In this document: positions 4,733 to 27,512 of the stretch, in pieces
How the letters are laid out: every line of letters begins with the position of its first letter
Numbering within the stretch: position 1 is the first letter of the stretch
Origin: a virus
Virus record (IMG/VR): IMGVR_UViG_3300031521_000228
Location: 1 to 33,344 of that record
Length of the DNA: 33,344 nucleotides
Direction: 5' to 3' (one strand)
The notes under the pieces: model-generated
Database searches by the model: none
What the model was told of the DNA's origin: nothing
The model's input: the letters and a program-made list of their open reading frames with translations, nothing else
Translations under genes and position numbers: made by a program

Positions 4733-4951
4733 ATGTACATTATAAAAATCATGTATAATGATAAATCTGTTGGTTCTATTTCAACCGCATTTGAAGATGA
4801 AACATTTTTCAACCTCTTATATTCTTTTGAAACATCAGAGGTGGTACGTCAATTTACAGTATCAGATGCGGGTGGAATTATGACCAATGACCATTTTGGA
4901 TACGGTAAACTCCATAAGTGGGTTGAGACTTTCAACTACAAACCACAATAA
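4733..4951 (+). CDS. Small hypothetical protein
   Basis: 72 residues; ATG at 4733 has GGAG 5-8 nt upstream within the end of the previous gene. Mixed alpha/beta pattern (MYIIKIMYNDKSVGSIS..., then VSDAGGIMTNDHFGYGKLHKW). No catalytic motif identified. Its stop codon lies in the 5' arm of the first intergenic ATAAAA-N6-TTTTAT hairpin. Confidence 0.55.
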   Translation: MYIIKIMYNDKSVGSISTAFEDETFFNLLYSFETSEVVRQFTVSDAGGIMTNDHFGYGKLHKWVETFNYKPQ

Positions 4952-4965
4952 AACTGTAATTTTAT
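4948..4965 (+). repeat. Intergenic hairpin ATAAAA-N6-TTTTAT, copy 1
   Basis: ATAAAA (4948-4953) and TTTTAT (4960-4965) form a 6-bp stem with the loop CTGTAA. Nine exact copies with the same 6-nt loop length occur in this window: here and at 5262, 5838, 6050, 7057, 11641, 12765, 14923 and 27495. All lie between genes. The upstream stop codon usually sits in the left arm. The right arm usually reads TTTTATGA, giving an ATG. Confidence 0.7.
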
Positions 4966-4980
4966 GAGAGGAGAAATAAA

Positions 4981-5265
4981 TTGGAAGAACTTTTGAGAGG
5001 AATTATATTTTCAATAATATGGCTTGGAATTGTGATTTTACTAATGAATATTGGTGAAAGAAAAATTGTTATCAAAAACATTAATGATGATTGGAAATAC
5101 GAATTGTTTAAATTGGTTTATAAGATGTTTACAACAAAAAGAAACAATTATGAAATAAATGTAGTTGAGGCTCTTTTATCTCTAAATGAAACAGGAAAAG
5201 AAATTGCACAGGCTATTAGAAACCACACCGTTTACCTTTCTACAAGTGGTAGAAAAGACCAATAA
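4981..5265 (+). CDS. Membrane-anchored hypothetical protein
   Basis: 94 residues beginning at TTG, chosen because GAGGAG lies at 4968-4973 with 7-nt spacing and no in-frame ATG fits. One N-terminal membrane span (about residues 7-24, GIIFSIIWLGIVILLMNIG) is followed by a charged helical cytoplasmic or periplasmic-side domain. Function unknown. Confidence 0.6.
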   Translation: MEELLRGIIFSIIWLGIVILLMNIGERKIVIKNINDDWKYELFKLVYKMFTTKRNNYEINVVEALLSLNETGKEIAQAIRNHTVYLSTSGRKDQ

Positions 5266-5279
5266 AAGGCTTATTTTAT
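5262..5279 (+). repeat. Intergenic hairpin, copy 2
   Basis: Loop GGCTTA. The right arm reads TTTTATAAAGGAG, so here the ATG seen in other copies is ATA and the following AAGGAG serves the HD gene at 5293. Confidence 0.65.
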
Positions 5280-5292
5280 AAAGGAGAATATA

Positions 5293-5841
5293 ATGTATTT
5301 TGAAAAAGAATTAAACTTAATAAAAGACCCAATTGTTAGAGATATTGCGGAACAGGGGGTAAAACTTATTCCTGATTATTTTTATCATGTTCCAGCATCC
5401 TCAAGTGGAAAATACCACCCCTCTTATACAATTGGAGATGAAGGTCTTTATCGTCACGTAAAAGCGGCAGTTTCCATTGCCAAGATGCTTTTCAATATTC
5501 ATGATTTTACGGATTTAGAAGAGGATATTATCGTAGCATCTCTAATTCTCCACGATGGATGGAAACAGGGCTTGGATGGAAGTGGTGGTAAAACTCTCCA
5601 TACTCATCCATTGATTGCCGGAGACGTTCTCTCTGAATTGGTGGTTGTAGAAAATGGTGGAGAACAACTTGTACTAAATTCAATTTGTTCTAACATTGAA
5701 TCTCACATGGGACAATGGACTACCAGCCAATACGATGAAACGGTTCTACCCCTACCAGAAACAAAAATGCAAAAGTTTGTTCACCTATGCGACTATATTG
5801 CAAGCCGTAAACCATTAGAATATAACTTTGCAGTAGAATAA
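5293..5841 (+). CDS. HD-domain phosphohydrolase
   Basis: 182 residues of the HD metal-dependent phosphohydrolase fold. H55 (LYRHVKAAV), H87-D88 (LILHDGWK), the HTHP segment (103-106) and the later HLCDYIASRK supply the usual metal ligands; the order fits HD nucleases and nucleotidases such as YhaM-type or YfbR-type proteins. It is unrelated in detail to the alarmone-hydrolase-like gene at 3599. Substrate cannot be read; nucleotides from host DNA or RNA breakdown are likely candidates. Good ribosome site AAGGAG 8 nt upstream. Confidence 0.75.
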   Translation: MYFEKELNLIKDPIVRDIAEQGVKLIPDYFYHVPASSSGKYHPSYTIGDEGLYRHVKAAVSIAKMLFNIHDFTDLEEDIIVASLILHDGWKQGLDGSGGKTLHTHPLIAGDVLSELVVVENGGEQLVLNSICSNIESHMGQWTTSQYDETVLPLPETKMQKFVHLCDYIASRKPLEYNFAVE

Positions 5842-5855
5842 AAACATCATTTTAT
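5838..5855 (+). repeat. Intergenic hairpin, copy 3
   Basis: Loop ACATCA. It spans the stop codon of the HD gene and ends in ATGAGGA, which opens a 14-codon reading frame (MRTDKQWKK...) overlapping the gene at 5871. Confidence 0.65.
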
Positions 5856-5870
5856 GAGGACAGATAAGCA

Positions 5871-6047
5871 ATGGAAAAAATTGAAAATATATATATAAAC
5901 AAAGTAGACAATGAACTTTTTGATTTGATTTGGCTAGATTTGTCTGTTGAGGAAAAAGCGTATCTTATTATCAAGGCGGTAAATAGAAAATTGACCGTTG
6001 ATGGTCTTTTGATGAAAACCTTAAATAAAGTTAATATGCTTGATTAA
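5871..6047 (+). CDS. Small hypothetical protein
   Basis: 58 residues (MEKIENIYINKVDNELFDLIW...), acidic, two or three helices. GAGGA at 5857-5861 is 9 nt upstream. Too short to place; sandwiched between two copies of the intergenic hairpin. Confidence 0.55.
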   Translation: MEKIENIYINKVDNELFDLIWLDLSVEEKAYLIIKAVNRKLTVDGLLMKTLNKVNMLD

Positions 6048-6049
6048 CG

Positions 6050-6067
6050 ATAAAACTAAGATTTTAT
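6050..6067 (+). repeat. Intergenic hairpin, copy 4
   Basis: Loop CTAAGA, preceded by ACG as in copies 6, 8 and 9. The right arm starts a four-codon frame, MRIK-stop (6066-6080), whose TGA overlaps the ATG of the next gene at 6077. Confidence 0.65.
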
Positions 6068-6076
6068 GAGGATTAA

Positions 6077-6271
6077 ATGATTAAGAAAACTAAAAGAACC
6101 GAAGAATATTTTGAGATTTCAAGAAAACAATTTGAATTTATCTATGCTCTTTTTTTGAAAATTGGAGTTTGGAAAATTCTTGAAATTATGGGGATGGAAA
6201 GAAAGTCCAAAGATGAGGATTTTATAGATGATTTTTGGAAAGAGATTGCAGAAGCTCTTGATGAGGATTAA
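6077..6271 (+). CDS. Small helical hypothetical protein
   Basis: 64 residues, charged and helical (KKTKRTEEYFEISRKQFEFIYALF...), acidic end (EIAEALDED). GAGGA is 5 nt upstream. Start overlaps the stop of the MRIK leader frame in an ATGA, so translation may be coupled. No family recognised. Confidence 0.6.
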   Translation: MIKKTKRTEEYFEISRKQFEFIYALFLKIGVWKILEIMGMERKSKDEDFIDDFWKEIAEALDED

Positions 6272-6276
6272 TAATT

Positions 6277-6705
6277 ATGAATGTTTTAGATTGTATCAAA
6301 GTAAAAAAGGATTTTTATTGTTTTTGTTTTGAACCAGAGGAACTATCTTTGTCTACAATAGAGATAGCCTCTCTTCCTTCTCTAGTTAGCGAATTGATAA
6401 ATTGGTCGGTTGTTTCTGTATCCCCAAAAAACAGGGTTGGAAAAGTTTTAGTTTTTGATGTTATTCCATATAAATCAATTGACCCCCCATTGATTTTTTG
6501 TAAAGGAATAGATTTATCAAGATATTATTTAATTTGGAACATCGTTATAATTGATAAAGGGAGAAGTTGGGATAGAAAATTGGTTCTTCAAGAGTTTGAC
6601 GAGATGCTGAGAGAATTGAATATTTCTTCTTTGACCAGAGAAGAATCTTCGTTCCTTATTTTTAATCTTTTGAATTTTAAAAATGAATATATTCGAAGGA
6701 TGTAA
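6277..6705 (+). CDS. Hypothetical protein
   Basis: 142 residues with alternating beta-strand-like segments (DFYCFCFEPEEL, KVLVFDVIPYKSI, YYLIWNIVIIDKG) and a helical end. Ribosome site is GAGGA 10 nt upstream, in the end of the previous gene. No motif recognised. Last gene before the promoter at 6709. Confidence 0.6.
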   Translation: MNVLDCIKVKKDFYCFCFEPEELSLSTIEIASLPSLVSELINWSVVSVSPKNRVGKVLVFDVIPYKSIDPPLIFCKGIDLSRYYLIWNIVIIDKGRSWDRKLVLQEFDEMLRELNISSLTREESSFLIFNLLNFKNEYIRRM

Positions 6706-6708
6706 CCC

Positions 6709-6737
6709 TTGACTTTTATTCGGTTTTGTGATAGAAT
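6709..6737 (+). promoter_or_regulatory. Sigma-A type promoter
   Basis: TTGACT (6709-6714), 17 nt, TAGAAT (6732-6737), with TGA before the -10 (extended -10). It starts immediately after the upstream stop codon and is followed by AGGAGG and the ATG at 6754, leaving only about 10 nt of leader. Confidence 0.7.
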
Positions 6738-6753
6738 GTTCTAGGAGGAAAGT

Positions 6754-7050
6754 ATGAGAAAATTTAAATTTACAATAGAAATTGACAGAAACGAGGTTGG
6801 GGAAGGGATAATTGAAATTGACCAAAAAGTTTTTGATATTGCAAACTCCGAAGAATTTAAGAGATACTTCCACACATTCGGTGATGATGATGCTATAGCT
6901 TCTCATGTTGCATATCATATGATTTATCACCGCGAAAGTGTAAACGAAATAGAAGGATTTTATGGTGCTTTAGACAAATATGCCGCTAAAATTGTAGAGT
7001 ATCCGAGAGGATATGATGACTTTGAATTTTTAGCAGAAGAGATTGTTTAG
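6754..7050 (+). CDS. Hypothetical protein
   Basis: 98 residues, N-terminal strand pair (RKFKFTIEIDRNEVGEGIIEID) then helices with several histidines (ASHVAYHMIYHRES). Strong AGGAGG ribosome site and own promoter suggest abundant early expression. No family recognised. Confidence 0.65.
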   Translation: MRKFKFTIEIDRNEVGEGIIEIDQKVFDIANSEEFKRYFHTFGDDDAIASHVAYHMIYHRESVNEIEGFYGALDKYAAKIVEYPRGYDDFEFLAEEIV

Positions 7051-7056
7051 AGTGTG

Positions 7057-7074
7057 ATAAAATGGGATTTTTAT
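7057..7074 (+). repeat. Intergenic hairpin, copy 5
   Basis: Loop TGGGAT; a flanking G/C pair extends the stem to 7 bp (7056-7075). Unlike other copies, the start codon of the downstream gene (ATG 7062) straddles the left arm and loop. Confidence 0.6.
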
Positions 7075-7226
7075 CGTGGTCGAGAAAGTCTAGGAAAGAA
7101 CTGGAAGAAGAATATAAAAACTATCCAAGCGGGTATGAAATAGTCAACAGATATAATACCAATGTTGAACTTGAACAACTAAACCCCGGAAAAAGCTGGT
7201 TGGCGTATATTGGAGATAACAAATGA
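7062..7226 (+). CDS. Small basic hypothetical protein
   Basis: 54 residues starting MGFLSWSRKSRKELEEEY. Its TGA overlaps the ATG of the next gene. The ribosome site is poor and the start codon lies inside a hairpin, so its translation may be restrained. No function recognised. Confidence 0.5.
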   Translation: MGFLSWSRKSRKELEEEYKNYPSGYEIVNRYNTNVELEQLNPGKSWLAYIGDNK

Positions 7227-7471
7227 AAATCGGAATGCTCTGGAATGGGAAAAATGTTCATGAGGCTAAAGAATACTTTATAAAGAAGTATGGCAGAATT
7301 CCAGACACAGTTGAAATTTCACCAATCTTCATAAATAAGTTTGAAATAAAAAACGGAAACATAGAAGGATTGAGGACTCAGGTTTGCAAAGAAATACAAG
7401 TTGGAAATATTTTAATTGGAATTGAAAACGATGAAAATAATTCGGGATATATAAAAATAAAGGAAAATTAA
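7223..7471 (+). CDS. Small hypothetical protein
   Basis: 82 residues, coupled by ATGA overlap to the preceding gene; GGAG lies 9-12 nt upstream. Predicted alpha/beta (MKIGMLWNGKNVHEAKEYFIKKYGRIPDTVEIS). The segment KEYFIKKYGRIPDTVEISP is reminiscent of small phage proteins of unknown role. No catalytic motif. Confidence 0.6.
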   Translation: MKIGMLWNGKNVHEAKEYFIKKYGRIPDTVEISPIFINKFEIKNGNIEGLRTQVCKEIQVGNILIGIENDENNSGYIKIKEN

Positions 7472-7472
7472 A

Positions 7473-8294
7473 ATGAAAAATGAAATTGGAAAAAATATTC
7501 TAAAATTTCTTTTTTTTCTAGGATGTGTTTACGGAATAATAAGAGTTTCAATTTGGAGTTATTTCCAAACTCAAGCATTTTTTATTCCGTTTGATGAAGG
7601 TGATTCTAGTCATGTGATTTCACACGCTCTGGCGTTGCTTACTCAATATGGGCAGAATGTTGTTTTATTTTTGGCGGCAATTGAAGCTGGTCGTAGGCTT
7701 GCATATAAGAATAAACTGGCTAACATTCAAAACAAAACTCATATTGCAATATTAGAAGAGGAAATAAACAAGTCTCAGGTTCTTTCAAATATTTATTATG
7801 TTCTGTTCGGTGTTTTTGCCTTGATTGACTCTGGAACAAATCTTGGTCAATTTTTTTCAACAACCGTAGTTGAGGCGAGAAAAACCATTCCTGATGGGTT
7901 TACAATGTACTGTTTTATAGGTATAGGTTCTCTCATTTCTGTCGTGGTTGTTTTTGTGGAAGAATTCTTTATGAATTCCGCAAATGCCCTTCTTCATGCT
8001 TTCAATGATATACTGGAAAGTATGGGAAAAAGAAGACTTGGTGGATTTGATTTGTTTATTGACCCCGATAAGGTTATCGCAACAAGAATGGATGAGAGAA
8101 ACGGTAAAATGGGAAACCAAAATAATTCTCAGAAAAATAATAATGCCGAGGCTCCCCATTATTCTGTTCCGGAAAATCTTCCGAGGAGAAATGAGGGCTA
8201 TCCTCAACCAAGAAATCAGCCAGTAACACAGCAAAGAGAATTGACATATCATCCCATGTCAAGACCAATAGAAAATCGTAACGGAAAAGTTTGA
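7473..8294 (+). CDS. Multi-span membrane protein with a polar tail
   Basis: 273 residues. Four hydrophobic segments can be seen near residues 9-30 (LKFLFFLGCVYGIIRVSIW), 52-70, 103-125 (IYYVLFGVFALIDSG) and 143-166 (MYCFIGIGSLISVVVVFVEEFF). After about residue 200 follows a hydrophilic tail rich in Asn, Gln, Pro and Arg, likely cytoplasmic and disordered. The family is not recognised; a host-envelope remodelling or superinfection-exclusion role is possible. Last gene of its unit, followed by a terminator 1 nt after the stop. Confidence 0.7.
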   Translation: MKNEIGKNILKFLFFLGCVYGIIRVSIWSYFQTQAFFIPFDEGDSSHVISHALALLTQYGQNVVLFLAAIEAGRRLAYKNKLANIQNKTHIAILEEEINKSQVLSNIYYVLFGVFALIDSGTNLGQFFSTTVVEARKTIPDGFTMYCFIGIGSLISVVVVFVEEFFMNSANALLHAFNDILESMGKRRLGGFDLFIDPDKVIATRMDERNGKMGNQNNSQKNNNAEAPHYSVPENLPRRNEGYPQPRNQPVTQQRELTYHPMSRPIENRNGKV

Positions 8295-8295
8295 A

Positions 8296-8327
8296 AGGTG
8301 GAGTTTTTCTCCACCTAATTTTTGTTT
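8296..8327 (+). terminator. Rho-independent terminator ahead of the RNA polymerase gene
   Basis: AGGTGGAG (8296-8303) pairs with CTCCACCT (8309-8316) around a T5 loop, followed by a T-rich tract to 8327. Its right arm (CACCT, 8312-8316) can alternatively pair with AGGTG (8330-8334), which is the ribosome site of the RNA polymerase gene. No promoter is seen between this terminator and that gene. Confidence 0.8.
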
Positions 8328-8340
8328 AGAGGTGAGTTTA

Positions 8341-10959
8341 TTGCTTAAGCTACAGAGTTTTTTCATTTATAAATTCAATACGAGAAGACTAAAACAAGAT
8401 GGATACCGAATAAACATAAACCCATCAGAAGCTAGAAGAAATAATGAAATGGTAAGAATTGGTGACTCTAATCTTTTGGAATTTTTGAGACGGATAAAGA
8501 AACAGGAATTATTATTTCCTGAAATTAAAAAATCAGAAAATGAAATAAAGAAGATTAGAAAAAATAAAAATTCTGTCAGAGCAAAAGAACGATTAGAAAA
8601 ATTGCAATATTCGGTAGATAAGTATTTGTTTATTCCAGAGATAATTTCGGTGGTGTTTGATGATAATAGACATTATAAACATCTGGTGAATAACGGATTA
8701 TACATAAACGGAATACTTTTTAAAAGACTGTATAGCGGCGCGGGAAATGCGAGACGTTCTACAGCATTTTTTATAGACGAGAGATATTACGAAAAAATGG
8801 ATTGGTATCTGGATTGTGGTAGAAAAGAATTAACCATAAATCCAAATAAGTATAATGCCTACTATTCACTTTCATCTTCGGCAGGAACACCAATTACTAC
8901 TCCTAGATTTACGGTTATTCCAGATTTAGAAATTATAAGACTTACAAAGGTTGATTTTGTAACAGAATCCACTGGACACGGAATAGACCCGAAAATTGAA
9001 GAAAAAGAAATTCAGCAAACATTCTCTGTGTTCGATGGTCAGGGAATTATGACCCCAACCTTTGCAAATCAGATTGCCTATGATTTAGAGTTGGACTACA
9101 CCCCTAGTTCATCAATCATTCGTTCAGCTTGGGTAAAAGGACTTTTAGTTTGTTTTGACTTCAAAGAGTTTGCGAGACAAAACAACGTTTCCGAGATAAT
9201 GGATATTTACGGTAACAGTTGCAATGTTGAAGAATTGGATGTTATTCTAACAGCAAGTCAATTTAAGATGTCTTCTGGATATGATAGTTTAGAACAATAT
9301 AAAGAAGAAGTTGCAAAGAGAGATTTTCAGTGGCGAGTAACTAGACCGTCTCCGAAGAAAGATAAGAACATTGTTCAAACCAATTATCAATATTTACAGT
9401 GTTTAGATTTAGATGATAACAGCATTGAGAGATTGTGTCAACCGACAATAAATTATCTAAAGGAAGTATCGGGTCTAAAGTGGTCGTCAATTATCCTATT
9501 CCTGATTGGTTCTATGCAAAAGAAGGATATAGACAAGAAATGGTTTGACAGATTAGACCCACTCATAAAAGTGTTATTTTATGAGCCTTTGTTGATTGAA
9601 AATGGGTTTGTAAGAAACAAGATAAAGAAGATGATTTCTAAGAAAATAAAAGAATCCTATATTGGGGTTCTAAATGTTGAAGGAAATTATTCAAACATGA
9701 TTTCTGACCCTCACGCATTTTCCCAACATGCCTTTGGGTTGCCAGTTACGGGATTACTTAACAGGAGAGAATTTTATTCTAATTATTGGAATAAGAAAAA
9801 TGTCAAGAAAGTTGCTTCTTTGAGAAGCCCCCTCACTTGGAAATCAGAAATAAATGTATTGGATTTGAAAAAAAATGAAAAAGTAGATTACTGGTACAAA
9901 TATCTAACTACCGGAATTATTTACAATATTTTCGATGAAAGTGTTATGTTGCATAGTGGTTGCGATTTTGATGGGGACATCACCTGCACAACAAACAATC
10001 AAGAAATTATAAATGGTGCTTCTGGTGGCAATCCAGTAACTTATGAAAGAAAGACTGCCCCTAAGTCAGATATAGATAAGGACAAGTTGTGGGAATCTGA
10101 CATCCAGACATTCGGGGGGAAGATTGGGTTCATCACAAATATTTCTAGTACCCTCCATAGTTTTCTTTGCTTATATAATGAAAATAGTGAAGAATATAAA
10201 ACTATTGAAAATAGGTTGAAAATATTAACGGCTTTTCAGTCCATGTCAATCGATAAAGCTAAAGGTATTGCAATTATGGATTTTCCCGATTGGTGGACAA
10301 AATGGGAAAAGGGCGAAGATTTTCAAAATAAAATACTTGCAGACAAACGCCCTTATTTTTTCAAGAATTTGTATGACCACTACAATAGAGAATATAAAAA
10401 ATATTTGAGCATTTATGATACTTTCTGCATCTCTAATTATGGCTTGAGTTTGCAACAGGTAAAAGAAAAAGAGAATAGAACCAAGGAACAGGAAAACACG
10501 CTTTATTATTTGAATAGATATAATCACCTGATAGATACACCTTCGGTCATGAACAAAATCTGTCATTACATGGAGAAGGAAGTTTCTCTTTTAAAGGATG
10601 CTAGAAACGACATGAACTTTGTGTTTCAGATAGACGAAGAAAAACTAGAAAAAATGAAACTTTTATATAAAGAGTGGAAAATTCTTCGTAAAAAACACGC
10701 CCAAGATGGTGAAAGTTTACTTCATTATGAAACAAAGAGAAAGGCGGACGAAATATCAGTAAATAGTAATGAGATTGCCAAGTTGGCATTGAATGTTTCC
10801 GTTGGTTTTGCTTTCAGCGTCTTTCCTGAATATGTAGAAGGATTATATAAAAAGAAGAATGTTGAAGTTCCTGTTTTAGATGAGAATGGAGATATTAAAT
10901 TTGATGGAGAAAAATATTCTCTCATGATTTTAGACTTGGAGGAAGAGTGGCTAGAGTAA
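8341..10959 (+). CDS. Single-chain DPBB RNA polymerase (YonO/QDE-1-like)
   Basis: 872 residues. The diagnostic motif is GCDFDGD, with D542, D544 and D546 holding the catalytic magnesium as in the DFDGD loop of multisubunit RNA polymerase beta-prime and in QDE-1/YonO enzymes. Upstream, LRSPLTWKSEINVLDL resembles the RNPclhPgDir block that precedes the active site in eukaryotic RNA-dependent polymerases of this superfamily. Downstream, a long helical region continues to the end. YonO of phage SP-beta and gp66 of crAss-like phages show that phage members transcribe DNA; I infer the same here, serving later phage genes. Start: TTG at 8341 has AGAGGTGA 5 nt upstream; GTG at 8332 lies inside that ribosome site. 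It sits behind a terminator and overlaps the next gene by 13 nt. Confidence 0.8.
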   Translation: MLKLQSFFIYKFNTRRLKQDGYRININPSEARRNNEMVRIGDSNLLEFLRRIKKQELLFPEIKKSENEIKKIRKNKNSVRAKERLEKLQYSVDKYLFIPEIISVVFDDNRHYKHLVNNGLYINGILFKRLYSGAGNARRSTAFFIDERYYEKMDWYLDCGRKELTINPNKYNAYYSLSSSAGTPITTPRFTVIPDLEIIRLTKVDFVTESTGHGIDPKIEEKEIQQTFSVFDGQGIMTPTFANQIAYDLELDYTPSSSIIRSAWVKGLLVCFDFKEFARQNNVSEIMDIYGNSCNVEELDVILTASQFKMSSGYDSLEQYKEEVAKRDFQWRVTRPSPKKDKNIVQTNYQYLQCLDLDDNSIERLCQPTINYLKEVSGLKWSSIILFLIGSMQKKDIDKKWFDRLDPLIKVLFYEPLLIENGFVRNKIKKMISKKIKESYIGVLNVEGNYSNMISDPHAFSQHAFGLPVTGLLNRREFYSNYWNKKNVKKVASLRSPLTWKSEINVLDLKKNEKVDYWYKYLTTGIIYNIFDESVMLHSGCDFDGDITCTTNNQEIINGASGGNPVTYERKTAPKSDIDKDKLWESDIQTFGGKIGFITNISSTLHSFLCLYNENSEEYKTIENRLKILTAFQSMSIDKAKGIAIMDFPDWWTKWEKGEDFQNKILADKRPYFFKNLYDHYNREYKKYLSIYDTFCISNYGLSLQQVKEKENRTKEQENTLYYLNRYNHLIDTPSVMNKICHYMEKEVSLLKDARNDMNFVFQIDEEKLEKMKLLYKEWKILRKKHAQDGESLLHYETKRKADEISVNSNEIAKLALNVSVGFAFSVFPEYVEGLYKKKNVEVPVLDENGDIKFDGEKYSLMILDLEEEWLE

Positions 10960-11606
10960 AACATTTGGATAAAATTCAAGCGAAGAGAATATTTGAAAAT
11001 GGCTTTGTCTTATATGACTACGCGGAAATGGTTGCCTTCTCTAAATATGCTATTAGAGAAGGTTGGTCTAAAGATAAGGCTGAAAAGTATATTAGAAATG
11101 AATTCTTTAAAAACGGAATGAATTTAGTTCTTCTTCAGTCAACAATTCACAAGGCGGTATTGAGTTCAAAGTATGACTTTCTTGAACAAGAAGAAGTGAT
11201 TATCACGAAAGAGGAAATTGCTGAGATTTCAAAATTGAAAAATAGGAAGTGGGAAAAGGCTTTATTTTCAATCCTTGTATTTGGAAAGAAGTATGGCATC
11301 ATTTTTAAATCCAACCTATACTCGTGGCAGGATTTGAAAGAAAATATAAAGAAGGTTGGGGTTCACATGAAACTGGACGAGTATAACCAGTTTCTTGCCA
11401 CCATTGGAAAAGAAAGAAAACTCGTAAATGCGGTAGTAAAGAAGAAAAAGCTCTCTTGGAGAATATCCTTTGCAAAAGATGATGGTGAGTTTTTCTGCCA
11501 AATAAAGGATTTCAATCGGGTTCAGGATTATCTTCCGAATTTCTGTAATGTCTGTGGGAAAGAGGTTTGGAAAAGGAAATATTGTTCTGAACACAGACCC
11601 AATTAA
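10947..11606 (+). CDS. Zinc-ribbon protein coupled to the RNA polymerase gene
   Basis: 219 residues, GTG start with GGAGG 4 nt upstream, inside the end of the polymerase gene. The N-terminal two thirds is helical and basic. The C-terminus carries C200-x2-C203 ... C213-x2-H216 (CNVCGKEVWKRKYCSEH), a zinc ribbon. I recognise no family. The 13-nt overlap implies co-translation with the polymerase, so a role as accessory subunit, promoter-recognition factor or processivity factor is a reasonable guess but unproven. Confidence 0.65.
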   Translation: MARVKHLDKIQAKRIFENGFVLYDYAEMVAFSKYAIREGWSKDKAEKYIRNEFFKNGMNLVLLQSTIHKAVLSSKYDFLEQEEVIITKEEIAEISKLKNRKWEKALFSILVFGKKYGIIFKSNLYSWQDLKENIKKVGVHMKLDEYNQFLATIGKERKLVNAVVKKKKLSWRISFAKDDGEFFCQIKDFNRVQDYLPNFCNVCGKEVWKRKYCSEHRPN

Positions 11607-11640: not shown

Positions 11641-11658
11641 ATAAAAGAGGAATTTTAT
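11641..11658 (+). repeat. Intergenic hairpin, copy 6
   Basis: Loop GAGGAA, which supplies the ribosome site of the next gene; the right arm TTTTAT contains the first two bases of its ATG (11657). Preceded by TATACG, as in copy 9. Confidence 0.7.
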
Positions 11659-12100
11659 GACACTTAAAAAAATTAATAAGGCGGATATTGTCTTTGAAAA
11701 TTGTGATTTTGTTAGTATTCCAGTAAAAGAAGATTCGGAACTTTTGCACTTTCATATGAGTGGAATAAGTGAAAGTGTCAGTAGTTGTAATTTAGACAAA
11801 GACCTTCATGCTTATAAAACAGCCAACGAAGTGTTATTGGAGTTTTCCAAAAAGGCTCTTTATCTCCCATCGTTCTGGGAAATAAAATACGGATGCGGTA
11901 ATATATTAAAAAATCAACTCAGCTTTAGAGATATTTGTTCGGTTTATATTTATTGTGAGGAAAACAAGGAATATGAATATTATGTTTCATACATAGAGGA
12001 AAATGAATCTGAACTGGGTTCCCCAAATTTAAATCAGATAAATCACTGGCTGAACGATGGTGGTTGTCGAGTTGAAATAAAGAAAATAATCAAGGAATAA
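11657..12100 (+). CDS. Hypothetical protein
   Basis: 147 residues, acidic, with Cys-rich stretches (VSSCNLDKDL, KYGCGNILKN, DICSVYIYCEENKEYEYYVSY) but no regular zinc spacing. Ribosome site and start codon are embedded in intergenic hairpin copy 6. No recognised family. Confidence 0.6.
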   Translation: MTLKKINKADIVFENCDFVSIPVKEDSELLHFHMSGISESVSSCNLDKDLHAYKTANEVLLEFSKKALYLPSFWEIKYGCGNILKNQLSFRDICSVYIYCEENKEYEYYVSYIEENESELGSPNLNQINHWLNDGGCRVEIKKIIKE

Positions 12101-12105
12101 ATTTT

Positions 12106-12306
12106 ATGAACAAACGTACACACTTCATTGTATGCAATGATGATGTTATAGGGACAGTTTTTCAACATCCGAAAATGGGAAGAACAATTGTATTCAATTC
12201 ATCCCCTTCCTTAGACGCTTTTTTGCAGGTATATGATGCAGAAAAACAAGAGATGATTTTAGAAAAAGATGTGCTTGATTTTTTCTGGGAGTTGCTTCCA
12301 GAGTGA
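12106..12306 (+). CDS. Small hypothetical protein
   Basis: 66 residues (MNKRTHFIVCNDDVIGTVFQHPKMG...), probably a small beta-sheet protein with an acidic helical end (DVLDFFWELLPE). AAGGA lies 12 nt upstream in the end of the previous gene. No function recognised. Confidence 0.55.
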   Translation: MNKRTHFIVCNDDVIGTVFQHPKMGRTIVFNSSPSLDAFLQVYDAEKQEMILEKDVLDFFWELLPE

Positions 12307-12323
12307 TAAAAGGATGAGTTAAA

Positions 12324-12557
12324 ATGAATGATGATAAATTTTTGGTAGACAATAGTGTTTCCAGCAATGATTTGTCAGTTAATGTTATGAAAACTCCAAA
12401 AACATATATTTGGAAACCTAAAGAAGATATTTCTGTTTATGAATTGGCATTGTGTTTACCACTAATTAGTTTTAGAGGATGGTTTGATGCTGAATATGCG
12501 ATTTCTGAATTACCAGAAAATTGTCAGAGACATTTTGAAGAAGTAAAAGAAGGGTAA
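12324..12557 (+). CDS. Small hypothetical protein
   Basis: 77 residues. The segment KTYIWKPKEDISVYELALCLPLI then WFDAEYAISELPENCQRHFEEV is helical and acidic; it resembles small phage proteins of unknown role. ATAAAAGGATGA upstream is a degenerate form of the intergenic hairpin (right arm TTAAAA instead of TTTTAT) and provides AAGGA. Confidence 0.55.
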   Translation: MNDDKFLVDNSVSSNDLSVNVMKTPKTYIWKPKEDISVYELALCLPLISFRGWFDAEYAISELPENCQRHFEEVKEG

Positions 12558-12561
12558 AAAT

Positions 12562-12765
12562 ATGAGTGAATTAAAAACAATTGAACAGGTTGGAGAAATT
12601 GTAGGAGTTGAGGGATTAGAGTATGCAATTATGGATTATTTGAATCCTTCCAAAATAGAAGACTCCGAACTTAGACGGTTATGGGATGAAGCCAGAATCG
12701 CAATTGAAAAAGTGGACTTGTTTCTAAAATATAAACTCGGTGAAGAGTTTTTTGATAACTTCTAA
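12562..12765 (+). CDS. Small acidic helical protein
   Basis: 67 residues (MSELKTIEQVGEIVGVEGLEYAIMDYL...), nearly all helix; phage homologues of similar composition are usually uncharacterised. AAGGG is 7 nt upstream within the end of the preceding gene. Confidence 0.55.
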   Translation: MSELKTIEQVGEIVGVEGLEYAIMDYLNPSKIEDSELRRLWDEARIAIEKVDLFLKYKLGEEFFDNF

Positions 12766-12782
12766 TAAAAGGATGATTTTAT
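12765..12782 (+). repeat. Intergenic hairpin, copy 7
   Basis: Loop GGATGA, carrying AAGGA as ribosome site; the right arm overlaps the ATG at 12781. Confidence 0.7.
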
Positions 12783-13230
12783 GATAGATAAAATAATGTT
12801 TGAAGCAGTAAATAGAAATTTAGAAATGAGAGAAAGAATGCTTTTATCTGAATATGACAAAACCATTCCTAAAGAAATCTGGTTAAAGGATTTTTGTACT
12901 ATTCACTTAAATATTGGCAGGTGTACGGGAAAAACATTCCACATTGCAGAAAACGCAAAAGAAACAGATGTTGTTTTTGTAGGTCTTAATTCCACGAGAA
13001 GTTTGATTCTCGATAAAAACAAAAGATTGAATAGGGTTGATGAAAATCTAATAAACCTAAATAACCTCATGTGGTCTCATAACAAAAAAAGAGATGTATA
13101 TGATTCTTGTAATATGATATTTGTTGATGAACCAAAAATCTCCCTAAAAAGATTTGATAATATTTTGGATTTTTATAGGCTTTTCATAAATAACAAAAAT
13201 GAAATGATTTTTATTCTTCTAGGAGAGTAA
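12781..13230 (+). CDS. P-loop NTPase-like protein
   Basis: 149 residues. NIGRCTGKTFHIAENAK looks like a Walker A loop (GxxxGKT, one residue shorter than the standard GxxxxGKT), and MIFVDEP like a Walker B strand ending in DE. Only the first half of a RecA-like or terminase-like core is present; it ends soon after Walker B with FILLGE. It could be a small stand-alone NTPase or a remnant of a larger ATPase. Start codon lies in hairpin copy 7. Confidence 0.6.
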   Translation: MIDKIMFEAVNRNLEMRERMLLSEYDKTIPKEIWLKDFCTIHLNIGRCTGKTFHIAENAKETDVVFVGLNSTRSLILDKNKRLNRVDENLINLNNLMWSHNKKRDVYDSCNMIFVDEPKISLKRFDNILDFYRLFINNKNEMIFILLGE

Positions 13231-13733: not shown

Positions 13734-13805
13734 GCGAAAGTAGCTCAATGGTAGAGCAAATGTTTTCCAAACATTAGGTTGTGGGTTCGAGACCCATTTT
13801 TCGCT
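13734..13805 (+). tRNA. tRNA-Gly (anticodon UCC)
   Basis: A complete cloverleaf can be drawn: acceptor GCGAAAG/TTTTCGC (one G-U), D stem GCTC/GAGC, anticodon stem AATGT/ACATT with loop TTTCCAA (anticodon TCC at 13766-13768), five-base variable loop, T stem GTGGG/CCCAT (one G-U) with loop TTCGAGA. CCA is not encoded. It reads GGA, a very common glycine codon in the genes here, which fits a phage tRNA that supplements the host supply. Confidence 0.95.
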
Positions 13806-13807
13806 CT

Positions 13808-13949: not shown

Positions 13950-14918
13950 ATGCAGAGACAACTATATATTGAATGTATGCAAAAATATAACAACGAAATA
14001 GATATTACTTGGCAGGAGTTGGCTGAAAAATATGGGATTTCTACTGGCAAAATTCTTTCAGATAGATGGCAGAGAATTAAAGATAAGGTAGACCCAATTT
14101 TAGAAGAAGATGGTGTTATGGGTGAAACTCCTTGTTTTCAGAAAAATAAAAACGCTCCGAAGATTTTAATTTTTGACATCGAGACCCATTTAAAAAATGC
14201 AAAACTTTTTAGACATGGTAAGCAATATGTGAATGCTTCTTCGTTCAGTGATTATGATTCAATGATTTGCTGGAGTGCGAAGTGGGTTGGAGACAATGAA
14301 GTTTTCGGGGATGTTCAAACTTCTACAGAGGCAGTTGAGAGAGACAATTCTAGAGTTACAAAATCTTTGTGGGATGCACTTTCAAGCGCAGACCTTACGG
14401 TTTCTCATAATGGAATAAACTTTGATTTGCCAATGGTAAACACATTTTTTATTGAAAATAGACTCGGTCTTCCGAATTTTTTCAGAAACATTGATACTTG
14501 TTCCATTGCAAGAAAAAACTTCAAATTTGAATCTAATTCATTAGACCATATTTGCAAACGGTTAGGAATCAATGATGGTAAAATGGATACATCTATTGAA
14601 TTGTGGGAAAAGTGTTACGTTGGTGAAAAAGAATCTTTGAGTTATATGTTCGAATATAACCAAATGGATGTAACTGTTTTGGAAGACCTTTATAATGTAT
14701 TTCTTCCATATATTCCGAGTTTTCCGAATTTGGGAGTTTGGGGAGATGTTACTCAGGCGAAGTGTCCTTATTGCGGAAGTACAAACTTTGAAGAGAAGGG
14801 ATATAAATATACTCCTTCAGGTAAGTTTAATTCTTATAGATGTGAATGTCAGGCTTTATTCAGAAGCAAAGAAAATCTTCTCTCTAAAGAATTCAAAAAA
14901 TTGCAAATGGTAACTTAG
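13950..14918 (+). CDS. DnaQ-like 3'-5' exonuclease with HTH and zinc ribbon
   Basis: 322 residues in three parts. Residues 1-45 look like a winged helix (ITWQELAEKYGISTGKILSDRWQRI). Residues 70-255 are an RNase H-fold exonuclease: D76-I-E78 (ExoI), HNGINFD with D159 (ExoII) and Y236-NQM-D240 (ExoIII). The C-terminus has a zinc ribbon, C272-x2-C275 ... C298-x-C300. Metal-dependent removal of nucleotides from DNA or RNA 3' ends is expected; the DNA-binding ends suggest a targeted nuclease rather than a polymerase proofreader. No polymerase is nearby. Start ATG has GGGAGAA upstream. Confidence 0.8.
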   Translation: MQRQLYIECMQKYNNEIDITWQELAEKYGISTGKILSDRWQRIKDKVDPILEEDGVMGETPCFQKNKNAPKILIFDIETHLKNAKLFRHGKQYVNASSFSDYDSMICWSAKWVGDNEVFGDVQTSTEAVERDNSRVTKSLWDALSSADLTVSHNGINFDLPMVNTFFIENRLGLPNFFRNIDTCSIARKNFKFESNSLDHICKRLGINDGKMDTSIELWEKCYVGEKESLSYMFEYNQMDVTVLEDLYNVFLPYIPSFPNLGVWGDVTQAKCPYCGSTNFEEKGYKYTPSGKFNSYRCECQALFRSKENLLSKEFKKLQMVT

Positions 14919-14922: not shown

Positions 14923-14940
14923 ATAAAAGGGATATTTTAT
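14923..14940 (+). repeat. Intergenic hairpin, copy 8
   Basis: Loop GGGATA; AAGGGA serves as ribosome site and the right arm contains the start of the eight-codon frame at 14939. Confidence 0.7.
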
Positions 14941-17308: not shown

Positions 17309-17322
17309 CAATGGAGTTTTTA

Positions 17323-18141
17323 ATGGGGGAAAAAATATCTGGAATTTATTGTATTGAAAATGTATTAAATGGTAAAAAATATATAGGAAAAGCCTTTGAC
17401 ATATACGGTAGATGGGTTCAGCATAAATCAGCATTAACTAAAAATCGAGATAGTTTTCATCTACAACAATCTTGGAACAACAATGGAGGAGAAAACTTTT
17501 CTTTTTATATAATAGAAATATGTTCCCCCGAAACCTTGAACGAAAAAGAAAAGTTTTGGATAAAGGAATATAAAACTTTTGGATTCAATGGAATATATGG
17601 TTTTAATTTAACGGAGGGGGGAAACGGGACATCTGGATATTCTCTCACCCAAGAAACAAAAAATAAAATATCTAAAAAAAATAAGGGGAGAACTGTTTCC
17701 GATGAAGCTAAGAAAAAAATGTCAGAAAATGCTTCAAGAAAATATGGGAATGAGAATTGGATGCACGTAAACGGTCACTCTGATGAATCTAAAAAAAGAA
17801 TGTCAGATTCTAGAAGAGGAGAAGATAATTCGTTTTTCGGAAAACAACACTCAGAGGAAGCAAAAAAGATTATTTCCGAAAAAAATAAAAATCCCCCAAT
17901 GGATAAAAGGATTTTGCATTCAAAAATAATGCGTAATAAAAAAGGAAATAACGTGAGTTCAAAATATTTCGGAGTTTCTTTCCATAATAGGAAAGATATT
18001 AAGAAAAAATGGAGGGCAAAAATAGGTATATTGGGGGTGGTTGTGGAAATAGGTCATTACATGACCGAGTTAGAAGCCGCAATTGCTAGGGATGAATACG
18101 TTATAAATAATGAGTTAGATTATCCATTAAATTTTACATAA
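17323..18141 (+). CDS. GIY-YIG homing endonuclease with NUMOD3 and AP2-like domains
   Basis: 272 residues. GIY (7-9), YIG (20-22) and R30 (DIYGRW) mark the GIY-YIG nuclease, with a downstream Glu in LNEKEKFWIKEY. Next come two NUMOD3-type DNA-binding repeats (SDEAKKKMSENASRK, HSEEAKKIISEKNKN). The C-terminus (KYFGVSFHNRKDIKKKWRAKIG...HYMTELEAAIARDEY) is an AP2-like DNA-binding domain. It is free-standing: phoH upstream and the protease downstream are both intact, so no intron is implied. ATG 17311 is an alternative start with only 2-nt spacing. It would cut a phage lacking the insertion and spread itself by repair. Confidence 0.9.
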   Translation: MGEKISGIYCIENVLNGKKYIGKAFDIYGRWVQHKSALTKNRDSFHLQQSWNNNGGENFSFYIIEICSPETLNEKEKFWIKEYKTFGFNGIYGFNLTEGGNGTSGYSLTQETKNKISKKNKGRTVSDEAKKKMSENASRKYGNENWMHVNGHSDESKKRMSDSRRGEDNSFFGKQHSEEAKKIISEKNKNPPMDKRILHSKIMRNKKGNNVSSKYFGVSFHNRKDIKKKWRAKIGILGVVVEIGHYMTELEAAIARDEYVINNELDYPLNFT

Positions 18142-18149: not shown

Positions 18150-18180
18150 GCATCTCTTATTAAATAAAAGGATACTATAA

Positions 18181-21996: not shown

Positions 21997-22033
21997 AAAA
22001 AGAAACTGTCCTTATTAATGGTAGAGAAAAGAC

Positions 22034-22062: not shown

Positions 22063-22068
22063 ATGTGT

Positions 22069-22134: not shown

Positions 22135-22164
22135 CAGCACTATTAACAGCAAATAGGAGATAGA

Positions 22165-22455: not shown

Positions 22456-22461
22456 GTTTTT
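22434..22461 (+). terminator. Rho-independent terminator overlapping the endonuclease stop
   Basis: AAAACTCAGGA (22434-22444) pairs with TCCTGAGTTTT (22450-22460), 5-nt loop, running into TTTTTAGTTT. The TGA stop is in the right arm, a compact design seen in self-contained mobile genes. Confidence 0.9.
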
Positions 22462-22476
22462 AGTTTAATAAAATCT

Positions 22477-22492
22477 TGGCAAGAAATTGCCA
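22477..22492 (+). promoter_or_regulatory. GNRA-capped hairpin in the portal leader
   Basis: TGGCAA (22477-22482) pairs with TTGCCA (22487-22492) around GAAA, a stable tetraloop, ending 10 nt before AAGGAGG of the portal gene. It may stabilise the mRNA or bind a regulator of portal synthesis. Confidence 0.5.
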
Positions 22493-22515
22493 GTAATGGA
22501 AGGAGGTAATAAAAA

Positions 22516-24138: not shown

Positions 24139-24614
24139 TGACCCTAACGAAAGATGAATACAGGGATAGAATTATATCCCATAAATTATCCGTGAAAACC
24201 GGTATTCAAAGAATTGTGGATGAGTTAGAGTCGAGGGCGGAGAAACATGATGACGACAAACTTTATCCCAGAATACTTGAAAATTTTATGAATGTTTCAA
24301 ATAAGTTCAGTGGGGTTAAATTTGCTTCTACTGAATATAATGAAATTCTAAATGAATTAAAACCAGTCTTGAATGAGCATTATGAAAAAAGTCCTCATCA
24401 CCCGGAACACAATATTAACGGAATAAATGGTATGACTTTAATTGATTTAATTGAAATGTTAGTTGATTGGAAATCTGCTTCAACTGCTTATGGGGACACC
24501 TTTTATGAATCTTTGAAAATAACAAAAGAAAGATTCAATATAGGAGAACAGTTATTTGAAATTTTATTAAACACATCGAAGGAATTGGGTTACTTGCCGA
24601 AAGGAGAAAATTAA
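24138..24614 (+). CDS. DUF5662-like protein
   Basis: 158 residues. SHKLSVKTGIQRIV, then EKHDDDKLYPR, HYEKSPHHPEHNINGINGMTLIDLIEMLVDWKSA follows the DUF5662 pattern (HK, HDxSK, HxxxxPHHPEH, DLIEMLxDW), a helical bundle with conserved His/Asp that resembles HD-type metal sites. Biochemistry of the family is unknown to me. It overlaps both neighbours at start and stop codons. Confidence 0.75.
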   Translation: MTLTKDEYRDRIISHKLSVKTGIQRIVDELESRAEKHDDDKLYPRILENFMNVSNKFSGVKFASTEYNEILNELKPVLNEHYEKSPHHPEHNINGINGMTLIDLIEMLVDWKSASTAYGDTFYESLKITKERFNIGEQLFEILLNTSKELGYLPKGEN

Positions 24615-26374
24615 TGATACTTGGGTGTGATGTGTCTTTTTATGAGAGTGATTCTGGGGGGAAGATAGATTTTGTAAGAATGAAGTCCGCCGGAATGAAG
24701 TTTGTTATTATTAGGGTGGGACAAAATTTATGGGTAGACCCAAGTTTTTCTGCAAATTGGATAGATTCTAAATTAGCAGGATTTCCTCGTGGTAGCTATT
24801 GGTTTTACGATAGTCGGATTAAACCAGAAGAACAGGCTTCTTTATGGGTTAAAACTATGGGAAATGATTTTGGTGAACTGCCATTGTTTGCGGACTATGA
24901 GGAATCATACAACGGCAAATATAAAGGCGGGGAAAATTTCAAATTATTTTTAGAAGAAATAAAAAGACTTTTACCAAATAAAGAAATAATAATTTACACA
25001 GGGTTTTGGTATTTTAAGGATAATGTCCCAACATCACTACATCCATACTTTTCACAATATAAATTGTGGACTGCTAATTACGGAAGTTCAAAACCATCAA
25101 TTCCACCTCCCTTTACAGATTGGGAATTTTGGCAATATTCTGAAGATGGAGTTGGAAAAGATTATGGTTGTAATGGTGGATTAGATATGGACTATTATAA
25201 CGGAACCCTTGAACAATTCAATGAGAGATTTAAAATAGGTTATACTTCTCCAGAAACAAATCAACCAAAACAAGATAAACTACTTTCAAGTAAAATTTAT
25301 TCAGATGGTGTGACTCTAAACTCTTATGAGGCTTATTTATCACAAGGCACAACTAAATACTATGTCTTTGATATAGAGATGACAAAAGTTGAATTCTTTG
25401 TTTCACCTCAATTATCGTCTAGAATGTATGTTCCAATGTTTTTGGAAAAATATAAACTAAATATTGCCGTAAACGGAGATGGATTCATTTCAACCGCCAC
25501 TACTGGATTTAATTCTAGTGAGGGAAAGTCTTATGGGAAATTAGGGGTAGAAGAAACTCTTTTCATAAATAATAAAAACCTTATTGAAAGAAAAATTCAG
25601 AATCCAATTTGGAACGCAATTTCTTATCCCAATAGAATTGTTGTCGATGGTAAAACTCCCACAATAAACAAGGAAAGAAGTGATATTAGAGGTAGAACCG
25701 CTTTTGGATATAATAAAGAACAATCCAAGTGCTATTTATTTGTCTGCGATGGAAAAGATTATTATAGCACGAGTGGAATGAACTTTTGGGATGTTTCAGA
25801 AAGATTAATTTCTCTTGGATGTGATTATGGAGTCATGCTGGATAGTGGGGGAAGTACAACTATGGCGGTTATGGATAATAACAAACCAATCGTCATAGGA
25901 GAACCCTGTGGGGAAGATTCTGTGATTGCTTATGAATATCCAATGAGAAGAGTTGCGAACGTTCTTGGGATTAGGATTAAAAAAACTTTGCCAAATGAAC
26001 AAGAATCACCAGAAACAGGAGAACAAGTAATGGATTTATATAAAGCAATTTGTGACGTAAAAGGAACGAGTATTAAGGCTATGGATAATGGTGCTTCTCT
26101 GGTAACTATGCAAATTGGATGGGAAGTTGAAGGGGAATTGTCCGCATTAAAAACCGATATTATCAATATTACAAAATATCGCAAGGGTACTGGAATGCCA
26201 GATATTACACTTCCAGAAAATTGTAAATGTTCATTAGCTGGACTAGGTACACCGGTTTTAATTTCAACCACTGAACCAATTCCAGACCCCACACCTACTG
26301 AGACTAAGAAAATAGTAAAATTGGTTGCATATTTTGATGATGAATCCACTAAAACATTTTTACCAGAGGGATAA
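24614..26374 (+). CDS. GH25 muramidase fused to a NAGPA-type glycosidase
   Basis: 586 residues. Residues 1-215 are a GH25 lysozyme: D6 (GCDVSFYE), D94 and E96 (FADYEES), IIYTGFWYF, and WQYS...GLDMDYYNG; these cut the muramic acid-GlcNAc bond of peptidoglycan. Residues 240-460 resemble the phosphodiester glycosidase (NAGPA/DUF2233) domain: NGDGFI, RTAFGY, FVCDGKDYYSTSGMNFWDV, and D410-SGGSTTM. That domain may act on teichoic-acid-like sugar phosphates. The C-terminal 120 residues end in VKLVAYFDDESTKTFLPEG, resembling the start of the next protein. No holin or signal peptide is present, so it is as likely a virion-bound wall-degrading enzyme as a lysis endolysin. Confidence 0.85.
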   Translation: MILGCDVSFYESDSGGKIDFVRMKSAGMKFVIIRVGQNLWVDPSFSANWIDSKLAGFPRGSYWFYDSRIKPEEQASLWVKTMGNDFGELPLFADYEESYNGKYKGGENFKLFLEEIKRLLPNKEIIIYTGFWYFKDNVPTSLHPYFSQYKLWTANYGSSKPSIPPPFTDWEFWQYSEDGVGKDYGCNGGLDMDYYNGTLEQFNERFKIGYTSPETNQPKQDKLLSSKIYSDGVTLNSYEAYLSQGTTKYYVFDIEMTKVEFFVSPQLSSRMYVPMFLEKYKLNIAVNGDGFISTATTGFNSSEGKSYGKLGVEETLFINNKNLIERKIQNPIWNAISYPNRIVVDGKTPTINKERSDIRGRTAFGYNKEQSKCYLFVCDGKDYYSTSGMNFWDVSERLISLGCDYGVMLDSGGSTTMAVMDNNKPIVIGEPCGEDSVIAYEYPMRRVANVLGIRIKKTLPNEQESPETGEQVMDLYKAICDVKGTSIKAMDNGASLVTMQIGWEVEGELSALKTDIINITKYRKGTGMPDITLPENCKCSLAGLGTPVLISTTEPIPDPTPTETKKIVKLVAYFDDESTKTFLPEG

Positions 26375-27180
26375 TGAAAATATCTGCTATATTTGAGGAT
26401 AATAGTGAACAGGTCTTTATAGAAGAATCTGTTCCAACTTTTCCAACATTTGCGAGAGTTAAACATTGGCATGAGCGTTTTGGTCTTTCTTATTTAGCAT
26501 ATGCTAGGTGGGAATCTGGAAATCCAAGACTACATGCCGGAAGTTATGGAGACCCCGCCGTTTTCCAACTAAATTGTTCTTCTAGTGACCACCCCGTTCA
26601 TATGACTCCGGAAATTGAAAATTGGGCGTTGGGATTATTGAGACAATCTTCTAAGGGGACAATGACGGAAGATAAGCTAAAATTAGCCTACAGAAACCTA
26701 TACGAAGGAATGAAAGCATTTACCAATGGATTTGGTTGGGATGACGGTTATCAATCCGTTATTTTAAATCTAAACATGGGCAAAGAAGCACAAAAACTTC
26801 AGTTAACTATGGCTAATGGCGCGACAATAAAGATTCTAGGGAGAATACAGAGAAGGGGTGGCCAACTCGTATATCCTTTTGAAGTTATGAATGCTCAAGA
26901 CCCAAACACTTTGAAAAGAACCTTGAAAGATTCTTGGTGGTTAATGTTTCCTGCTACAAACTCAACATTGGAACCTCAACCGAAAGGAACCGTTGAACCA
27001 TTTCCTAAATTAAATGATTATGATTTAATTGTTCCCATGTTGGCAAATAATACGAATGTTGGATATATTCAAGCGGAATGGGTTGAATTTCTTGGAAATA
27101 ATATAACTCAGCCAGTATTCCCATATTATAAAACGTGGGTGTCAGAAGAACAATGGAAAATGAATAGAGGATTATTTTAA
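26374..27180 (+). CDS. Hypothetical protein, virion or lysin associated
   Basis: 268 residues; start overlaps the lysin stop (TAATG) and GAGGGA lies upstream. The first 20 residues (MKISAIFEDNSEQVFIEE) match the lysin tail in the pattern A-x-F-x-D-x-S...F-x-x-E, suggesting a shared small beta module. The body (YARWESGNPRLHAGSYGDPAVFQLNC, WALGLLRQSSKGTMTEDKLK, GFGWDDGYQSVILNLNMGKEAQKLQLTM) is soluble with no known motif. Likely a structural or wall-binding partner. Confidence 0.6.
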   Translation: MKISAIFEDNSEQVFIEESVPTFPTFARVKHWHERFGLSYLAYARWESGNPRLHAGSYGDPAVFQLNCSSSDHPVHMTPEIENWALGLLRQSSKGTMTEDKLKLAYRNLYEGMKAFTNGFGWDDGYQSVILNLNMGKEAQKLQLTMANGATIKILGRIQRRGGQLVYPFEVMNAQDPNTLKRTLKDSWWLMFPATNSTLEPQPKGTVEPFPKLNDYDLIVPMLANNTNVGYIQAEWVEFLGNNITQPVFPYYKTWVSEEQWKMNRGLF

Positions 27181-27192
27181 CTTGGAGAAATT

Positions 27193-27498
27193 ATGATTTT
27201 AAACGTATTTGAAAGATTATCAATTTTATCAATCCTTCCAAAAGAAAGTGATTATACGACGATAAAGATAATCAGAAAACTTAGAGAAAATCTATCTTTC
27301 ACAGAAGAAGAATATAAAAAACTAAAATTCGAAACCGGTAATGAAACTATCAAGTGGGATAATAAAGAGGATATTTCAAAAGAAATAGAAATCGGAGAAA
27401 AGGCTACAGATATAATAATTGAAGCCTTAAAAAAATTAGATTCCGAAAAGAAACTTACAGACCAGTTTTTTGATATTTACGAAAAGTTTATACGATAA
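27193..27498 (+). CDS. Small helical hypothetical protein
   Basis: 101 residues (MILNVFERLSILSILPKESDYTTIKIIRKL...), helical and acidic, of a type common in phages of Gram-positive hosts near tail genes (conserved start ERLxLLxILPxE). TTGGAG upstream. Role not known to me; ends exactly at hairpin copy 9. Confidence 0.6.
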   Translation: MILNVFERLSILSILPKESDYTTIKIIRKLRENLSFTEEEYKKLKFETGNETIKWDNKEDISKEIEIGEKATDIIIEALKKLDSEKKLTDQFFDIYEKFIR

Positions 27499-27512
27499 AA
27501 TGCTGATTTTAT
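27495..27512 (+). repeat. Intergenic hairpin, copy 9
   Basis: Loop TGCTGA, preceded by TATACG like copy 6. It spans the TAA of the upstream gene. The right arm reads TTTTATTGG, so no ATG. A second, imperfect hairpin, AGTTATG (27519-27525)/CATAACT (27545-27551), follows in the 94-nt gap before the sugar cassette. Confidence 0.65.

Follow-up and report, generated by a model that had tools for sequence, protein, structure and literature searches.

Dif-like dyads with individual spacers at gene junctions of a virus fragment and of SPbeta-type phages: probable boundaries of exchanged gene cassettes

A repeated dyad at gene junctions

The window analysed here (IMG/VR record IMGVR_UViG_3300031521_000228; 33,344 nucleotides) is a linear fragment of a virus, in which genes were called with a simple purpose-written gene finder. 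Its genes include one for a single-chain RNA polymerase resembling YonO, and mostly between genes it carries copies of the dyad ATAAAA-N6-TTTTAT, in which two constant 6-bp arms enclose a spacer of variable sequence. In our view the best explanation of this element, which we consider likely on the sequence evidence set out below, is that it belongs to a class of dif-like 11-6-11 sites bounding gene cassettes that are traded between phages, probably by means of the recombinase YomM.

There are ten exact copies in the window compared with about 0.1–0.2 expected, and in a census of all perfect 6-bp dyads at spacer lengths of 0–16 the ATAAAA-N6 dyad ranks first (10 versus 0.08 expected). When one mismatch is allowed, 14 matches are obtained versus 2.0 (standard deviation 1.3) in dinucleotide shuffles, and identical arms at spacings of N4, N5, N7 and N8 are found two, zero, zero and zero times, respectively. 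The first-pass annotation of the window had listed nine of the copies, and all nine proved to be exact, with 6-bp arms and 6-nucleotide spacers; as it had also noted, four are preceded by ACG (6050, 11641, 14923 and 27495) and eight of the nine have A as the last spacer base. An equal frequency of the motif in coding DNA or in shuffled sequence, which it had named as grounds for discarding the motif, was looked for and not found. Its statement that the copies sit at gene junctions holds for nine of the ten exact sites, even though 83% of the window is coding, but the tenth, at 9565, had been overlooked and lies inside open reading frame (ORF) 8332–10959. The two degenerate forms that it proposed find no support: that near 12303 (12306) reaches 6.8 bits against a profile of good sites, which is the level of the shuffle background, and that at 18164 is outside the top 26 profile matches. 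Conservation in the window is confined to the 6-bp arms and parts of their flanks (n = 9). Convergence of Shine–Dalgarno sequences and stop codons was rejected as the origin of the dyad, as the distance from site to start is variable and N4–N8 spacers other than N6 are at background. Three of the spacers (GAGGAA, GGATGA and GGGATA) do resemble Shine–Dalgarno sequences, so some sites also serve translation starts.

Other genomes were gathered through relatives of YonO. In the same unbiased census the dyad is top-ranked in 13 genomes, with N6 every time; exact counts include 13 in SPbeta (NC_001884), 14 in phi3T, 15 in BUCT082, 48 in G008 and 10 in a Staphylococcus SPbeta-like phage. The carriers are SPbeta-type phages and several uncultured relatives, with 10–100 sites per phage genome, mostly at gene junctions. 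A profile scan of a 160-kb virus, G004, found approximately 100 copies of the variant CCCC-ATGAAA-N6-TTTCAT-GGGG, again mostly at gene junctions. When T/C variants are included the counts are 80 in G004, 66 in the 88.9 kb of G008 and 50 in the 51 kb of G011. The half-site comprises about 11 bp in SPbeta (TTTTATTYRRA, from inspection of the SPBc2 sites) and reads TTTCATGGGR in G004, with some 10–11 conserved positions. In G011 (L061–L063) unlike half-sites are preferred, 38 of 46 sites having T in exactly one arm and C in the other at the fourth position. In the metagenome-assembled genome G019 (3.4 Mb), a single phage-like 147-kb contig, NGFH01000003 (L048, G019:C4), contains the majority of the 54 matches; although filed in a Bacteroidetes genome, this contig is probably misbinned or a prophage-like element.

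Constant arms with variable loops had been taken in the first-pass annotation as a site recognised as either RNA or DNA. The notion of a recognised site stands, and the element is very probably recognised as double-stranded DNA, judging from the sequences of its arms. The variable arm position in G004 is C/C in 54 sites, C/T or T/C in 42 and T/T in one. Complementary pairs between the arms number 55 in G004 versus 62.6 expected and eight in G011 versus 20.6 expected, with no positive covariation in either. Pairing of the arms would need compensatory changes; as none are seen, the element is not an RNA hairpin. Arms with A–C mismatches are common, and the predicted RNA folding energies of the sites are only 0 to −1.6 kcal/mol. 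The half-site profile is identical for both arms, as with two protein subunits on double-stranded DNA.

Spacer sequences and exchange of the flanking genes

Among 332 spacers from 11 genomes there is no identical pair within any genome in either orientation (10.4 expected under a column-shuffle null) and no palindromic spacer (7.6 expected), while pairs differing by one mismatch number 102 versus 148 expected. Ten SPbeta phages taken alone likewise have no identical pair (1.9 expected) and no palindrome (5.0 expected), and the 54 spacers of FADO and E3, two phages examined later, include neither (about one of each expected). These spacer rules are those that a conservative recombinase comparing overlaps would impose, and they would not be expected of an operator.

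Comparison of related phages indicates that the spacer acts as an address, which stays while one or both neighbours change. The spacer GACCGA occurs in nine phages with seven gene families on its left and five on its right; the corresponding numbers are five and five for GGAATA, five and four for TCAACA, and five and two for CTTACA. Same-spacer pairs across SPbeta-like phages have both flanks homologous in 126 cases, neither in 97 and exactly one in 115, and at eight of the 16 addresses that were sampled at least four times the left and right flanks occur in recombinant combinations. In ten SPbeta phages a homology breakpoint falls in 105 of 161 element windows (65%) compared with 189 of 793 control junction windows (24%), an odds ratio of 6, for which the nominal p-value overstates the certainty because the phages are related and the pairs are not independent. 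The homologous block usually takes in the whole element and ends just past the far arm; with non-homologous flanks, identity stops at a median position of 8, counted from the edge of the spacer, and unrelated sites give 7. One address, seemingly, is the spacer TGATAA, which has opposite orientations in two different SPbeta phages (SPBc2 99497 and phi3T 89339).

For the phage of the window itself, the evidence consists of the identical site type and a single comparison with a relative, G002, which shows the same pattern. The CTGTAA and GGCTTA/GGCTTC sites are common to both, and the genes beside or between them are without a match; a blastp search with the genes between sites 4948 and 5262 gave no match in G002. 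The counterpart of the 14923 site in G002 (10592) has the spacer GAAGCA and is followed by a non-homologous gene.

Site-specific recombination is the best-supported explanation of these elements. Each copy, with its two inverted half-sites, would be the double-stranded DNA target of a Xer-like tyrosine recombinase encoded by the phage, and its 6-bp spacer would be the strand-exchange (overlap) region. As tens of sites follow stop codons and precede ribosome-binding sites, the DNA between two of them would form a promoterless cassette holding one gene or a few. Exchange would require identical spacers, the cassette of a co-infecting or resident phage taking the place of the one with the matching address. 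If a spacer were repeated within one genome, the intervening DNA would be deleted, and a palindromic spacer would lose its direction, which would explain why both are avoided. The recombinase most likely belongs to the YomM family, which is encoded in the late gene cluster.

YomM and the competing explanations

Tyrosine recombinases were listed across 20 records. The YomM profile scores 222–474 bits in those records that are complete or large and have a clear set of sites, and it reaches at most 69 bits, or has no match, in five site-free YonO phages (PMBT24, TR-TP1, G012, G014 and G016). The YomM alignment retains the catalytic residues (R, K, H-x-x-R/K, H/W and Y), and the PDB structures closest to its profile are archaeal XerC-like/XerA proteins and XerD. 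Two phages picked by YomM alone have abundant sites: FADO has 30 (control 1) and the Geobacillus phage E3 has 24 (control 0). A YomM search of viral contigs with a single protein gave only one weak fragment besides copies of the G019 phage. SPbeta relies on a serine recombinase for its integration (PMC10516654), a step that therefore does not call for YomM, and the open-access papers searched contained no statement on YomM and assigned no function to yomM. YomM is the likely acting enzyme, and we infer that it binds and recombines the sites, with the spacer as overlap, during co-infection. Recombinases of the YomM type are also carried by Lactococcus 949, Enterococcus 9183, Staphylococcus SEP9 and other phages considered to be lytic, in which the presence of an integrase is otherwise hard to understand.

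Several observations weigh against this interpretation. The prediction of sites from YomM was clear in only two of four phages and is therefore only half strong: Enterococcus 9183 has six sites (control 1) and Lactococcus 949 only two (control 0). PMBT69 has a YomM of 438 bits but one exact site, together with three copies of a GTAAAA-N6-TTTTAC variant (0.01 expected), and MT835481 is borderline with five sites. Conversely, no YomM is encoded on four fragments that do carry sites, namely the window, G002, G008 and G011. In the YomM of SPbeta, Perkons and the Staphylococcus SPbeta-like phage (L033 40301–41302 and relatives), arginine II is a lysine (HLFK/HIFK), whereas it is R elsewhere. The acting enzyme could also be a different one, as SPbeta-like phages carry further proteins with the tyrosine-recombinase fold (YopP and MrpR). 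The statistics on spacers depend on the column-shuffle null and on an element definition that had been fitted partly on these genomes. Finally, the laboratory phi3T–SPbeta hybrids Hyb1, Hyb3 and PP526179 switch over in long homology and not at sites, so homologous recombination certainly also shuffles SPbeta-like phages; as a test of the sites these hybrids are uninformative or mildly negative.

With these reservations, the sequences lead us to favour, by a modest degree, a broader statement: that large phages of mainly Gram-positive hosts have their own cassette-exchange machinery, with an ordered, genome-wide series of up to approximately 100 orthogonal Xer-type sites, heritable spacer addresses that different phages have in common and one late-expressed recombinase that would swap single accessory genes between co-infecting phages, one position at a time, without deleting or scrambling genomes. 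Phages have mosaic genomes, whose joints are usually credited to recombination, either illegitimate or homologous, with selection sorting the products. If our interpretation is correct, a dedicated mechanism would make this mosaicism orderly at single-gene resolution, and SPbeta, the best-studied prophage of Bacillus subtilis, would be an immediate test system. It would also account for the so-called integrase of strictly lytic phages, provide a sequence code to predict which phages can trade genes, and supply hundreds of naturally occurring recombination sites, all distinct from one another, for a single enzyme.

An alternative that we regard as unlikely is that the dyad is an operator for a dimeric phage regulator, comparable to the SPBRE/MrpR sites or to the stoperators of mycobacteriophages, and that swapped genes carry it along or recombine through its short homology. 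Symmetric half-sites without covariation, placement at junctions and tens of copies would all suit an operator; homologous recombination can start in short shared sequences, the laboratory hybrids used homology, and MrpR, the SPbeta repressor, has a tyrosine-recombinase fold (PMC10516654). However, operators leave unexplained the complete lack of identical and of palindromic spacers, the fixed spacers at which both neighbours change and the co-occurrence with a catalytically complete recombinase. The sites also differ from SPBRE. SPBRE is likewise a repeated intergenic element of the same phages associated with a protein of this fold, but it is a 15-bp sequence, CAAATAATATGTATA, found at about ten promoter sites (PMC10516654). 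As CAAATAATATGTATA is the motif of the published MrpR target promoters, the SPBRE/MrpR operator was rejected as the identity of the dyad. Stoperators, which are asymmetric sites for a monomeric repressor (PMC9283540), are ruled out by the symmetric half-sites.

It is improbable that the sites, having another function or none, simply mark joints at which modules were brought together by illegitimate or annealing-based recombination at microhomology. The sites do coincide with module boundaries, and at some of them homology runs a few base pairs past the arms. Such joining would not account for the constancy of the arms in distant phages or for their link to N6; it should be indifferent to palindromic spacers, and the recombinase co-occurrence would again be unexplained.

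Very little probability attaches to the suggestion of the first-pass annotation that the dyad is a promoter of the phage polymerase. A YonO-like enzyme is indeed encoded in the window, and the YonO promoter sequence has not been determined (PMC5467207). Nevertheless, the sites are symmetric, they occur in phages without a YonO match (the Staphylococcus SPbeta-like phage and FADO), and counts are at background in the five phages named above that have YonO but no YomM. The mapped YonO start of SPbeta is upstream of yonK (PMC5467207), where none of its 13 exact sites is situated (the nearest is at 57147). We dropped this explanation since the sites follow YomM rather than YonO. An RNA hairpin governing translation or processing, which had been put forward both as a processing site and as an element placing the ATG in a stem, would fit the proximity of sites to start codons and the Shine–Dalgarno-like spacers, but it is contradicted by the pair counts, the frequent A–C mismatches and the near-zero folding energies and can scarcely be credited.

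Known systems and individual features of the window

The movement of modules by a tyrosine recombinase is known from pdif modules and integrons; in the open-access literature searched we found no description of a phage-encoded layout with many addresses, of the spacer-code pattern or of YomM as its likely enzyme. One close relative in form is dif, the chromosome-dimer resolution site, which is single and is served by the host XerCD/FtsK. The phage sites share with it the two inverted arms of approximately 11 bp (in G004 and SPBc2) and the 6-bp centre, their centres are unique and non-palindromic, and YomM is Xer-like by sequence. In contrast to the single chromosomal dif, there are 10–100 junction sites per phage genome, each with its own centre, the half-site varies by phage, and the recombinase is probably phage-encoded. 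The pdif modules of Acinetobacter plasmids are similar in that accessory genes flanked by many Xer-type sites move as modules (PMC6449649, PMC5790767). They are credited to the host XerC/XerD, whereas here a phage recombinase would act on up to approximately 100 sites with one address each, and exchange would take place at homologous positions of related phages. Integrons, which have also been reported in phages (PMC9892861), likewise combine promoterless cassettes with a tyrosine recombinase, but attC sites are folded single strands that insert at one attI, while the present elements are short double-stranded dyads distributed genome-wide. The lack of arm covariation argues against attC sites. 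T4-type mobile regulatory cassettes resemble the system in being repeated intergenic elements tied to gene shuffling in phages. They contain an early promoter and a stem-loop, and we know of no recombinase or address code for them.

The individual sites and candidate cassettes of the window are listed in Table 1. The dyad at 7057 may be kept by protein-coding constraint, and that at 9565 is probably coincidental or coding-constrained.

Table 1. Exact dyads and candidate cassettes in the window (positions are those of the window unless G001 or G002 is named).
Feature	Position	Strand	Remarks
Dyad, spacer CTGTAA	4948–4965		Over TAA stop of ORF 4721–4951; same spacer at G002 1731, with non-homologous neighbours
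Dyad, spacer GGCTTA	5262–5279		Over stop of ORF 4981–5265; G002 site 2272 has GGCTTC
Dyad, spacer ACATCA	5838–5855		Over stop of ORF 5293–5841
Dyad, spacer CTAAGA	6050–6067		Between ORFs 5871–6047 and 6077–6271
Dyad, spacer TGGGAT	7057–7074		Over start of ORF 7062–7226, conserved in relative; same sequence at G002 3260
Dyad, spacer GTGTTA	9565–9582		Inside YonO-like polymerase ORF; G002 5649 in homologous ORF
Dyad, spacer GAGGAA	11641–11658		Immediately 5′ of ATG of ORF 11657–12100; spacer Shine–Dalgarno-like
Dyad, spacer GGATGA	12765–12782		Directly 3′ of ORF 12562–12765, followed by ORF 12781–13230
Dyad, spacer GGGATA	14923–14940		4 nucleotides past exonuclease ORF 13950–14918
Dyad, spacer TGCTGA	27495–27512		Over stop of ORF 27193–27498; identical in near-identical contig G001 (10949)
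Candidate cassette gene, 94 amino acids	4981–5265	+	CTGTAA to GGCTTA; non-homologous gene between matching G002 sites
Candidate cassette gene, 182 amino acids	5293–5841	+	GGCTTA to ACATCA; no blastp match in G002
Candidate cassette gene, 58 amino acids	5871–6047	+	ACATCA to CTAAGA; no blastp match in G002
Candidate multi-gene cassette	11657–12765	+	GAGGAA to GGATGA; called genes without blastp match in G002

The portal and terminase of the window share approximately 30% identity or less with those of Enterocloster and SPbeta-like phages. A tRNA-Gly (TCC) gene at 13734–13806 was the sole match in an Rfam scan of the window, and a GIY-YIG homing endonuclease gene is located at 17311–18141. The YonO-like polymerase (8332–10959; 875 amino acids) matches the Pfam RdRP family and contains the DFDGD motif (CDFDGD). 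Immediately 3′ of it is a gene for a protein of 219 amino acids (10947–11606; G004 42626–43405) with relatives in several YonO phages, which is a possible partner of the polymerase. The YonO-like gene is broken into two ORFs by about 220 bp in G002 (4425–7289, L014) and by about 415 bp in phi3T (L054 2623–5530), possibly an intron or an inserted element.

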